A stretch of DNA of 64,000 bases from NCBI RefSeq assembly GCF_000738675.1, contig NZ_JPUX01000001.1, positions 620,001-684,000 of the forward strand, written 5' to 3'. The notes under the pieces were generated by a model, which was given only the letters and a program-made list of their open reading frames with translations, searched no databases and had not been told where the DNA came from. The position numbers and the translations under genes were made by a program. The DNA is from Serratia nematodiphila DZ0503SBS1 (lineage in GTDB: Bacteria; Pseudomonadota; Gammaproteobacteria; Enterobacterales; Enterobacteriaceae). Each line of letters starts with the position of its first letter. Positions within the stretch are counted from its first letter, which is position 1. Positions 38,021 through 41,810 of this stretch are shown here, piece after piece.

Positions 38021-38284
38021 TTATTTGTAAATCTCGGCGGTGGCGTGGTAGTTGCCTTCGTTACGGGCTTCGATCACGCGGTAGGCGGTCGCGCCTTTCG
38101 CGTCGGCTTTCTCCGACAACGCCTGGCGAATGTCGGTCGGCGCGCCGTCGATGCCGCTGACGGTAATGGTGCCGATAGATTGCAGATTGGCGGTCTGATC
38201 GTTAGTCACCAACTGGGCGGCAGACGCGCCGAAGGAGATGACGGACAGCAAACCGAGTGCAGCAACAGTAGTTTTCATGTTCAT
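38021..38284 (-). CDS. DUF1471 (YhcN-like) periplasmic protein, copy 1
   Basis: 87 residues: signal peptide MNMKTTVAALGLLSVISFGASA and a DUF1471 domain with APTDIRQALSEKADAKGATA and a GNYHATAEIYK end. It is a tandem paralogue of the gene at 38405-38668; the last ~40 residues differ only at a few positions. E. coli YhcN, beside argR, responds to acid and peroxide stress. Start taken at 38284 with AAGGA 8 bases upstream; a second ATG two codons later is possible. Confidence 0.9.
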   Translation of the reverse strand: MNMKTTVAALGLLSVISFGASAAQLVTNDQTANLQSIGTITVSGIDGAPTDIRQALSEKADAKGATAYRVIEARNEGNYHATAEIYK

Positions 38285-38404: not shown

Positions 38405-38668
38405 TTATTTGTAGATTTCAGCGGTCGCGTGGAAGTTGCCGTCGTTGCGCGCTTCGATCACGCGGTAAGCGGTCGCTCCTTTGGCGTCAGCTTTGTCGGA
38501 CAGTGCCTGGCGAATGTCGGAAGGCGCAGCGGCGACGCCGCTCACGGTGATCACACCGGCGGGCTGCAGTTTTGCGGCCTGGGTTGCATCAACAGATTGT
38601 GCTGCGAATGCGCCAAAGGAAAGCATGGACAGAACGCTCAGGGTTGCAACGGTAGCTTTAATTTTCAT
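38405..38668 (-). CDS. yhcN: DUF1471 (YhcN-like) periplasmic protein, copy 2
   Basis: 87 residues: signal peptide MKIKATVATLSVLSMLSFGAFA and a DUF1471 domain. This copy starts MKIK and is next to argR, so it is the better orthologue of E. coli yhcN. GAGG seven bases upstream supports 38668; an ATG three bases earlier is in frame. A short perfect hairpin CAGTTC-CAAC-GAACTG lies at 38695-38710 in its leader. The 120-base gap to copy 1 holds no obvious terminator, so the two may be co-transcribed. Confidence 0.9.
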   Translation of the reverse strand: MKIKATVATLSVLSMLSFGAFAAQSVDATQAAKLQPAGVITVSGVAAAPSDIRQALSDKADAKGATAYRVIEARNDGNFHATAEIYK

Positions 38669-39024
38669 CATCTCACCTCATCGTATTCTTTTATCAGTTC
38701 CAACGAACTGTGATTCAGTTCACGAAAATGAGTATACAGCTAGTAACGTGAAAAATTAATAGTTCGCTAACAGTTGCTAGTGAAACTTTAACCTCATGAT
38801 TCTTATTTTTTATAACCGTAAGGAATAAAAAACGCTCATAAAACGATCTTTTGATGTTAAATTTATGTAATTTCAATAAGGTAAGTGATTTTGACCAAAA
38901 GTGCGGAAGATCACAGTGGGTACTGCTGGTTACATGGAGATGTCATGGAAATGTGTTGTTGCGGGATAAAAAAGCAGTGTTAAACGCGGTTGAAGGCTGG
39001 GAAGGTAACGCGAGGGTTAAAGAA
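38669..39024. other. AT-rich intergenic region between yhcN-like gene and argR
   Basis: About 360 bases, strikingly AT-rich from 38700 to 38900, with no plausible gene; frames reading into argR antisense lack a ribosome-binding site. It should contain the minus-strand yhcN promoter. CTAGTAAC at 38739-38746 and GTTGCTAG at 38772-38779 form an imperfect inverted repeat that could be an operator. Confidence 0.45.
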
Positions 39025-40945: not shown

Positions 40946-40972
40946 TCGACACCGATAGTCAGCCGATAAACG

Positions 40973-41002
40973 CCGCCGGACGCTGTTCCGGCGGTTTTTT
41001 TT
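40973..41002 (+). terminator. Intrinsic terminator after mdh
   Basis: Perfect stem CCGCCGGA/TCCGGCGG with a CGCTGT loop and eight T. Confidence 0.93.
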
Positions 41003-41011
41003 GCCCCGCGT

Positions 41012-41272
41012 TCACGATTTGATGCGTGCTTTGCGATCCAGCAGGCAATCGCTGTGCGGATCGTAATAGCGGCTTGGCCAGATCTCCGAAGGGTGGATGC
41101 CTATCGCTTCGGCGATCAGCCATTCCCCCTTTGGCCACGGGCGCGACAGCGCATTGGCCAGCGTCGATGAGCTTAATCCGGCCTTGCGCGACACTGCCGC
41201 CAGCGTGGTGCCCTGCTTGCGTAGCGCCGCGATGATATCTGCCGGATGCCAATCTGGGTTCCTTGAATTCAT
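41012..41272 (-). CDS. sfsB: Ner-like DNA-binding transcriptional regulator SfsB
   Basis: 86 residues. Helix-turn-helix of the phage Mu/D108 Ner family: DWHPADIIAALRKQGTTLAA then LSSSTLANALSRPWPKGEWLI, closely matching E. coli SfsB (Nlp). SfsB was found as a multicopy activator of maltose genes in cya/crp mutants; its native role is unclear. The ATG at 41272 (AAGGA 8 bases upstream) aligns with E. coli; an earlier in-frame ATG adds nine residues. Divergent from a Mu-repressor-like gene across a palindrome-rich region. Confidence 0.93.
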   Translation of the reverse strand: MNSRNPDWHPADIIAALRKQGTTLAAVSRKAGLSSSTLANALSRPWPKGEWLIAEAIGIHPSEIWPSRYYDPHSDCLLDRKARIKS

Positions 41273-41304
41273 GTTTACATTCCTTTTCTGATTAGCCAAA
41301 GTTG

Positions 41305-41324
41305 CGTTAGTGGTATAACTAACG
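41305..41324. promoter_or_regulatory. Palindrome 1 (candidate operator) between sfsB and the Mu-type gene
   Basis: CGTTAGT-GGTATA-ACTAACG, perfect 7-base arms, 32 bases upstream of the sfsB start. Size and symmetry suit a dimeric HTH regulator. Confidence 0.6.
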
Positions 41325-41333
41325 GGTCATGGT

Positions 41334-41361
41334 TAAGCGTTTGAACAACGTGAAACGCTTA
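41334..41361. promoter_or_regulatory. Palindrome 2 (candidate operator) between sfsB and the Mu-type gene
   Basis: TAAGCGTTT (41334-41342), ten bases, AAACGCTTA (41353-41361): perfect 9-base arms with a sequence different from palindrome 1, consistent with a second regulator's site. Confidence 0.6.
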
Positions 41362-41383
41362 TTCGGAAACAAGAATACCATTA

Positions 41384-41440
41384 AATTTCCTAAAAAATAC
41401 CCAAGTAATTTCCAAAAAAAGACATTGCCCACTATTGCCC
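41384..41440. repeat. Short direct repeats before the Mu-type gene
   Basis: AATTTCC plus an A-run occurs at 41384 and 41407 (23-base period). ATTGCCC occurs at 41424 and 41434 (10-base period), the latter just before the start codons. Possible repressor half-sites or leader elements. Confidence 0.4.
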
Positions 41441-41444
41441 AGAG

Positions 41445-41810
41445 ATGATGGCTATGAAAAACGAGTGGTTTGCCGCCAAGGAACTGACAGGCATCGCAGG
41501 ATTACCCTCCTCACCACAGGGAATCAATCTGATGGCCCGACGCGAAGGCTGGATCAGCCGCAGGCGTAAAGGCGTGCAGGGAAAAGCGTTGGAGTACCAT
41601 ATCGACAGCCTGCCTCCAGGCGTACGTAACCTGCTGACGCTGAAAGAAGACGGGGCGGTATATGACGTAGAACGCCAGGATCCGTTGGCGGTCTGGATCG
41701 AGTATTACTACCATTTGACGGAGAGCGAGCGCGAGAAAATGGTGGCTTTCCTGATGCGGGAAGGGATTGGCGGCCTGCTGGCGCGTATCGACGAAGATAG
41801 CAATACCTAG
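41445..41810 (+). CDS. Mu-type DNA-binding protein (Mu c-repressor/MuA N-terminal-like)
   Basis: 121 residues. Residues 8-66 form the winged helix shared by the Mu transposase N-terminus and Mu repressor c: WFAAKELTGIAGLPSSPQG, ARREGWISRRRKGVQGKALEY, SLPPGVRNLL. The tail (about 83-115) contains LTESEREKMVAFLMREGIGG and LLARI, resembling the Leu-rich segment before the GGLLAL of Mu c as I remember it. No DDE transposase core, so it is a regulator or remnant rather than a transposase. The start is uncertain: ATGs at 41445, 41448 and 41454, none with a strong ribosome-binding site. Divergent from sfsB; convergent with ispB. Confidence 0.85.
   Translation: MMAMKNEWFAAKELTGIAGLPSSPQGINLMARREGWISRRRKGVQGKALEYHIDSLPPGVRNLLTLKEDGAVYDVERQDPLAVWIEYYYHLTESEREKMVAFLMREGIGGLLARIDEDSNT

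Follow-up and report, generated by a model that had tools for sequence, protein, structure and literature searches.

Phage Mu chooses between sleeping and replicating through a pair of repressors, c and Ner. Between mdh and ispB on the chromosome of Serratia nematodiphila DZ0503SBS1 lie two divergent genes that resemble such a pair, which raises the question of whether a bacterium has taken over a phage immunity switch for its own use. We addressed this question in a window of 64,000 nucleotides (C1:620001-684000 of a genome of two contigs and 5.22 Mb); the window is the whole stretch of DNA that was analyzed, and positions are counted from its first letter. A sequence-only reading of this stretch had proposed a domesticated and possibly bistable two-repressor switch, an interpretation that is partly supported by the results described below.

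The two genes and their phage relatives

The interval between mdh and ispB in the window holds sfsB and the MuC gene, at the places and in the orientations given here, and no further gene:

41012-41272, minus strand: sfsB, Ner-family DNA-binding protein, 86 aa (HTH_35, 125.3 bits; phrog_769; 1neq)
41454-41810, plus strand: MuC, Mu c-like/YfeC-like winged-helix protein, 118 aa (PF02316, PF07037, phrog_7148, AlphaFold)
40972-40995, plus strand: terminator-like hairpin in the mdh/sfsB gap (consensus scan only, with 2 found against 1.6 expected)

The leftward gene had been read as a member of the Ner family, and this assignment was confirmed. SfsB scored 125.3 bits against HTH_35 (cut-off 25), which places it in the Ner/HTH_35 family, and 109 bits against phrog_769 (transcriptional repressor); it matched the Mu Ner structure 1neq with an E-value of 3.6e-20, and its best solved relative by E-value was EnrR (7f9h). 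Against the SfsB equivalog NF007670 (NCBIfam) it reached 125.8 bits, below the cut-off of 150; its kinship to SfsB is argued from synteny and the tree instead. The start of sfsB is best placed at ATG 41272, with an AAGGAA ribosome-site-like sequence and a product of 86 aa, and not at TTG 41299. Elsewhere in the window, positions 38021-38284 and 38405-38671 encode two similar short proteins in tandem, each with a signal-like start. The corresponding place in Serratia relatives gives two matches to E. coli YhcN (DUF1471 type).

The rightward gene had been described as encoding a 121-residue protein with a Mu-type winged helix (wHTH). The domain is indeed present, but the length needs correction: because most relatives start with MKNEW or MKKEW, we put the start at ATG 41454, giving 118 aa, whereas the 121-aa form begins at 41445. 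The nearest named relatives of MuC are in Serratia bockelmannii, S. ureilytica and S. marcescens (96-97% protein identity). MuC shares with the Mu repressor c both a Mu-type wHTH (48.8 bits against PF02316, the Mu DNA-binding domain, with a cut-off of 23.3; 1g4d, E 1.2e-7) and a position divergent from ner. With 38.6 bits against PF07037 (cut-off 22.9) it is also a member of the YfeC-like family. A transposase core had been reported missing from this protein, and none is possible, because the open frame measures at most 133 aa from stop to stop, too short for a DDE core; the only two PF02316 matches in the genome are both short frames (133 and 119 aa).

The wHTH alone scored 44.4 bits with MuA, slightly more than the 35.0 bits that it reached with Mu c. 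Over its full length, MuC is closest in sequence to the phage c repressors. Its best and longest phage match in tblastn was the repressor of PhiR68_1 (99% of the query, 37% identity), and phrog_7148 (transcriptional repressor) spans residues 1-115 of the 121-aa form. The possibility left by the sequence-only reading that only MuA fragments would match was thus not borne out, although the preference of the isolated wHTH for MuA stands. In BLASTP, PhiR68_1 c aligned with MuC residues 1-112 (39%), D108 c with residues 4-112 (35%), and Mu c with residues 2-58 only, that is, with the wHTH. These alignments to residue 112, together with a KGGLLALM stretch in Mu c at a seemingly equivalent place, bear out the c-like GGLL tail that had been noticed in MuC. 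The full C-terminal region of c is missing from MuC: PhiR68_1 c and D108 c run some 55-60 residues past its end, and 118 aa compare with 171-196 aa in the phage proteins.

A profile of the MuC tail matched six Mu-type c tails, hand-picked and therefore not a blind choice, at an hhalign probability of 90.5. It found no match in the set of all phage c tails (probability 0.7) once the viral contig L125, possibly itself a host pair locus, was left out, the value being 39.0 with L125 included; nor did it match MuA tails (probability 1.5). An AlphaFold model of MuC (mean pLDDT 82.1, pTM 0.48) predicts a wHTH followed by C-terminal helices at residues 77-87 and 90-116, and its only PDB matches at E <= 0.001 were 1tns and 1qpm, the DNA-binding domains of MuA and Mu c (1qpm, E 5.8e-4).

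Distribution, descent and selection

Named loci were collected with a single peptide pattern, and the best 80 of the 209 found were analyzed; because one pattern was used, this set is biased to close kin. It covers Serratia, Yersinia, Photorhabdus, Xenorhabdus, Morganella, Providencia, Edaphovirga, Fukatsuia and MAGs. A divergent Ner gene was present within 800 bp of MuC in 67 of these best 80 loci (within 400 bp in 61), with IspB in the stretch of all 67 and Mdh in that of 64, so that the co-conservation check suggested by the sequence-only reading came out in favor of the pair. The remaining 13 of the 80 comprised 12 stand-alone Serratia paralogs and one contig end. Two MuC copies in tandem were found in 34 of the 67 pair loci.

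In an order-wide sample of 394 genomes, 94 had a match of the MuC type, in many cases within a frame of transposase length. Of the 45 matches that reached at least 95 bits, 43 had a divergent Ner gene at 146-820 bp, and the other two were stand-alone Serratia paralogs. The 39 genomes whose best MuC match reached this score all had the pair; 27 belong to Orbaceae (family f27), 11 to the window's family and one to family f5. At least five Orbaceae genomes (G086, G180, G231, G241 and G270) had a Ner match and no pair-type MuC. Neither mdh nor ispB was found near the pair in three Orbaceae loci fetched at length, and proQ adjoins the pair in the two Orbaceae loci whose neighbors were scanned. The pair therefore has two unlike chromosomal homes, one between mdh and ispB and one beside proQ in these two loci. 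The locus extends to Morganellaceae and Orbaceae, and MuC is in the same family as E. coli YfeC and YfeD. In E. coli K-12, sfsB lies beside ispB, with 227 bp between them and no MuC there, and yfeC-yfeD lies beside gltX with no ner neighbor in 14 kb. Among 19 further genomes with separate genes, IspB was present in the sfsB stretch of 17. Since E. coli-type genera hold the two proteins apart, linkage is not needed everywhere.

Several single loci add to this picture. The Serratia genome analyzed here has a second MuC gene (C1:2303859-2304194), 71% identical to the first and with no Ner in the 11.5 kb examined (L258, G000:C1:2298500-2310000); its neighbors are an Ada/AlkA-type repair gene and a gene for a 1128-residue GGDEF-EAL protein, and the 17-bp element described below is kept. 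Three contigs in IMG/VR, a viral collection, look like pieces of host chromosome, with a pair locus of Xenorhabdus type on L121, MuC beside gltX on L124, and a 120-aa MuC with Ner on L125. In Serratia symbiotica (L061), the ner match covers only about 41 residues, mdh matches in two pieces and the MuC match covers 113 residues. Another lineage of divergent Ner and Mu-type wHTH genes, with frames of 131-190 aa, was seen in L243-L245 (genomes G248, G306 and G308), where no transposase was seen in the short stretches fetched.

A Ner tree of 94 rows, chosen by the author, placed 57 chromosomal Ner/SfsB rows on one side of a branch and 37 phage rows on the other (SH-aLRT 83), and grouped the Orbaceae (86) as well as the window's family with f5 and SfsB (91). 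The MuC tree has 133 rows and few columns; in a free search, the pair rows were divided among the c and A rows of phages, and many forks stayed open. When the 54 pair and paralog rows were held together, the likelihood was better than in the free search (p-AU 0.84), and holding the pair and paralog rows together with YfeC/D gave a p-AU of 0.93. Because the Ner branch splits in this way and the constrained MuC tree was not rejected, the trees favor rather than prove a single shared capture of the pair. This lends modest support to one shared origin of the pair over the separate recruitment that had been proposed as an alternative. Where dS was defined, in 16 of 20 comparisons, dN/dS was 0.04-0.15 for both genes (the remaining four gave no dS, and dS exceeded 1.5 in 5 of the 16). 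Both sfsB and MuC are under strong purifying selection.

The shared control region

As the sequence-only reading had it, the divergent genes between mdh and ispB have one control region in common, 181 bp long. Its features are as follows:

41273-41453, no strand: shared control region, 181 bp (alignment of 12 relatives)
41307-41323, plus strand: 17-bp element TTAGTGGTATAACTAAC with a putative extended -10 facing MuC (TG 41311-41312, hexamer 41314-41319)
41372-41380, minus strand: putative extended -10 facing sfsB, TGGTATTCT, with TA.CA (TGnTA on the minus strand) invariant in 12 relatives
41334-41361, no strand: perfect 9-bp inverted repeat (41334-41342/41353-41361), candidate Ner-type operator (repeat search)
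41365-41413, no strand: GGAAA at 41365-41369 and TTTCC at 41386-41390 and 41409-41413, the latter two being direct repeats 23 bp apart; candidate MuC/YfeC-type sites

A standard consensus scan of the window found no sigma-70 promoter in the control region. In the 12-relative alignment, TTA.TG.T and TAA (then C in nearly all) were invariant or nearly so around the MuC-facing extended -10, and conserved bases reached past the -10 box into both arms. The two facing hexamers were 49-52 bp apart in all 21 chosen non-Orbaceae loci and 64-72 bp apart in 13 chosen Orbaceae loci, where the anchors were searched with looser expressions. A uniform test detected the facing pair of extended -10 boxes in every one of these loci (21/21 and 13/13), compared with means of 1.15 and 0.63 and maxima of 5 and 3 after shuffling; these figures are not probabilities because related sequences are not independent. 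The facing pair was also found in 94 of 96 non-viral pair stretches (83 distinct sequences). The -10 boxes are putative promoters, and the layout that these conserved elements would form resembles the Mu immunity switch.

The 17-bp element lies within a near-palindrome at 41306-41323 with the arms GTTAGT/ACTAAC. In its own genome, TTAGTGRTATAAMTAAC occurs exactly at two places only, each upstream of a MuC gene, at 131 bp before MuC in the window and at 100 bp before the paralog. Among 198 genomes of the family there were 26 exact matches, 22 of which lay in the same orientation 100-138 bp upstream of a MuC-type gene. Of the other four, one (G471) is in an mdh-Ner-MuC-ispB locus with MuC about 530 bp downstream, and three are inside long open frames, two of these in near-identical sequence. 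With one mismatch, 17 of 54 matches in the 198 genomes had this same placement before a MuC-type gene. Allowing up to one mismatch gave 80 matches in total, compared with 44 for the reversed control; 39 of the 80 preceded a MuC-type gene and the other 41 lay elsewhere. Within the best 80 of the 209 named loci, 48 of the 67 pair loci had the exact element and 19 did not. It was present in 9 of 13 Serratia paralog loci; these paralogs retain it with no adjacent ner. It was found in none of 18 Orbaceae pair loci, 20 yfeC loci or 22 fetched stretches with sfsB and no MuC (20 places, two fetched twice). The element thus marks MuC genes in the window's family, and its reader would act mainly on the module itself. 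A global regulator acting through this element was rejected: with up to three mismatches the genome had 33 matches against 41 for the reversed control, so that only the two exact copies stand out.

The perfect 9-bp inverted repeat sits between the two predicted transcription starts. Its letters are not kept outside Serratia in the 12-relative alignment; by eye, other genera show different dyads at the same place. A direct repeat at 41424-41441, two copies of ATTGCCCA, was discarded as not conserved in that alignment.

On the MuC strand, TTTCC/TTTCT (TTTCY) boxes were in excess over dinucleotide shuffles in all four groups compared. Their counts, with the shuffled means in parentheses, were 21 (6.1) for nine Serratia, 17 (4.7) for six Yersinia, 24 (5.8) for seven others and 65 (24.4) for thirteen Orbaceae; some of the boxes counted lie near sfsB, and opposite-strand boxes show a roughly twofold excess in the three non-Orbaceae groups. 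Near MuC, the boxes usually follow one another at steps of 20-24 bp; Photorhabdus, Xenorhabdus and Orbaceae have additional boxes at intervals of 9-12 bp. The available part of a study of E. coli YfeC describes TTC-rich inverted repeats with a 6-nt gap at 50 sites, and repression of 16 of 20 direct targets (PMC8464067). The TTTCY boxes share the TTC core of this motif, but their geometry differs, most of them being direct repeats instead of inverted repeats with a 6-nt gap (PMC8464067). The TTTCY array probably belongs to MuC.

Two further patterns were seen by eye before sfsB genes with no linked MuC. A stretch with GAAC(A/T)TTTTAGAAC-like and GTATAGT sequence is shared by several E. coli-type genomes (among L219-L221 and L224-L228), and is perhaps a rewired sfsB promoter. 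The sfsB promoters of L210, L213, L214 and L216 have GGAA/TTCC-type boxes around a TATAAA-like stretch, and give the impression that YfeC, encoded elsewhere, continues to act on them.

Origin of the pair and comparison with known systems

We consider it likely that the locus is a domesticated Mu-type immunity module, in which an ancestral c-ner pair was captured by the cell, the phage was then lost, and the pair has been inherited as a self-controlling pair of chromosomal regulators. The face-to-face promoters would produce leaders that overlap, the first running toward sfsB and the second toward MuC. If the module follows the plan of Mu, SfsB, as a Ner protein, would bind the dyads at and around the promoter of MuC and those that separate the two starts, thereby repressing MuC and probably itself, and MuC, bound to the TTTCY array in its own leader, would repress either its own unit or the opposing promoter. 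Both proteins may then act elsewhere, as the roles of E. coli YfeC and SfsB suggest. The assignment of each protein to its sites, the repression and any switch behavior are predictions of this model. A bolder version, which we regard as rather unlikely, is that the whole phage decision circuit has been kept since before the split between Orbaceae and the Enterobacteriaceae type and still functions as a two-state switch that is passed on to daughter cells; sfsB and yfeC-yfeD of E. coli would then be its separated halves. If this were true, individual cells of Serratia, Yersinia, Photorhabdus and Gilliamella would be either 'SfsB-on' or 'MuC-on', and this state would set the YfeC and SfsB regulons.

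The same genes could also be two ordinary phage-derived transcription factors that share a gap, each autoregulated or regulated elsewhere with no mutual repression, and that are kept together by synteny inertia. The splitting tolerated by E. coli-type genera and the stand-alone MuC paralog of Serratia would fit this explanation, and the 17-bp element could be a promoter only; but Orbaceae too keep the divergent pair, at an unlike locus, shuffled sequences come nowhere near the conservation of the facing -10 boxes and of their spacing, and the conservation extends past the -10 box into both arms, which makes us doubt it. Less plausible still, and in our judgment very improbable, is that MuC is an N-terminal fragment of MuA, or a mixture of A and c, and not a former c repressor. 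The preference of the wHTH for MuA over Mu c points that way, the two domains being homologous, as do the many Pseudomonas phage transposases whose matches cover 81% of the query. The phage match that is both best and longest is nevertheless a repressor, covering 99% of the query, the repressor family phrog_7148 covers residues 1-115, the MuC tail gives no match with those of A (hhalign probability 1.5), and MuC, divergent from ner, occupies the place of c. A decaying prophage remnant with no function has next to no chance of being correct. The genes do resemble phage regulators, and the ner match in Serratia symbiotica is down to about 41 residues, but dN/dS is 0.04-0.15 (16 of 20 comparisons), the control elements are conserved, the location is the same across many genera and, in the window, only two genes lie between mdh and ispB; we therefore rejected this explanation.

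Bacteria are known to have adopted single phage repressors. In this case, the two arms of an immunity switch seem to have been taken over jointly, along with the control DNA that they share, and kept under purifying selection in several families, and the pair allows a concrete and cheap test of whether a domesticated lysogeny circuit still switches. In the available parts of five publications (PMC8464067, PMC8987985, PMC9308461, PMC2374986 and PMC10899749), we found no description of sfsB and yfeC-type genes as one module. A partial literature search likewise returned no joint module with a conserved control region, from which we do not claim its absence from print. The parts were already known, SfsB as a relative of Ner and YfeC as a regulator.

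The c-ner regions of Mu and D108 are like the locus described here in that c and ner are divergent and a Mu wHTH protein is paired with a Ner protein. The gap between the genes is 169 bp in Mu and 181 bp here, and the Mu record places two promoters, which we take to be the facing Pe and Pc, and Ner sites in this gap. Unlike Mu, the Serratia pair has no transposase beside it. MuC is shorter than phage c and lacks the C-terminal region whose last residues are KKAV in Mu, D108 and PhiR68_1, a tail that serves as a protease signal; in turn, a facing extended -10 pair at the Serratia-type spacing was not found in Mu.

EnrR of Edwardsiella (PDB 7f9h) is likewise a chromosomal Ner-like regulator; it is described as an H-NS counter-silencer, and the available part of that description makes no mention of a MuC-type partner (PMC10899749). 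E. coli SfsB (Nlp) is the same Ner-family protein on the same ispB side of the locus, but in E. coli it has no MuC neighbor and its surroundings lack the 17-bp element. The relation between Ner and SfsB is already in print, in an article whose available part also reports that E. coli SfsB acts on maltose genes (PMC8987985). E. coli YfeC and YfeD belong to the same PF07037 family as MuC and are in tandem, as in Photorhabdus and Xenorhabdus, and the TTC-rich sites of YfeC may be compared with the TTTCY boxes here; the differences are their place beside gltX and the absence of a ner neighbor in 14 kb. What is available of the YfeC study covers its regulon and eDNA release in E. coli (PMC8464067). 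The yfeD/yfeC genes were once predicted to be a toxin-antitoxin pair (PMC2374986), a reading that we set aside: both are found by the MuC profile, and we therefore read them as tandem DNA-binding relatives. On the origin that we favor, E. coli SfsB and YfeC/YfeD, which are poorly understood regulators, would gain a common origin and candidate operators.
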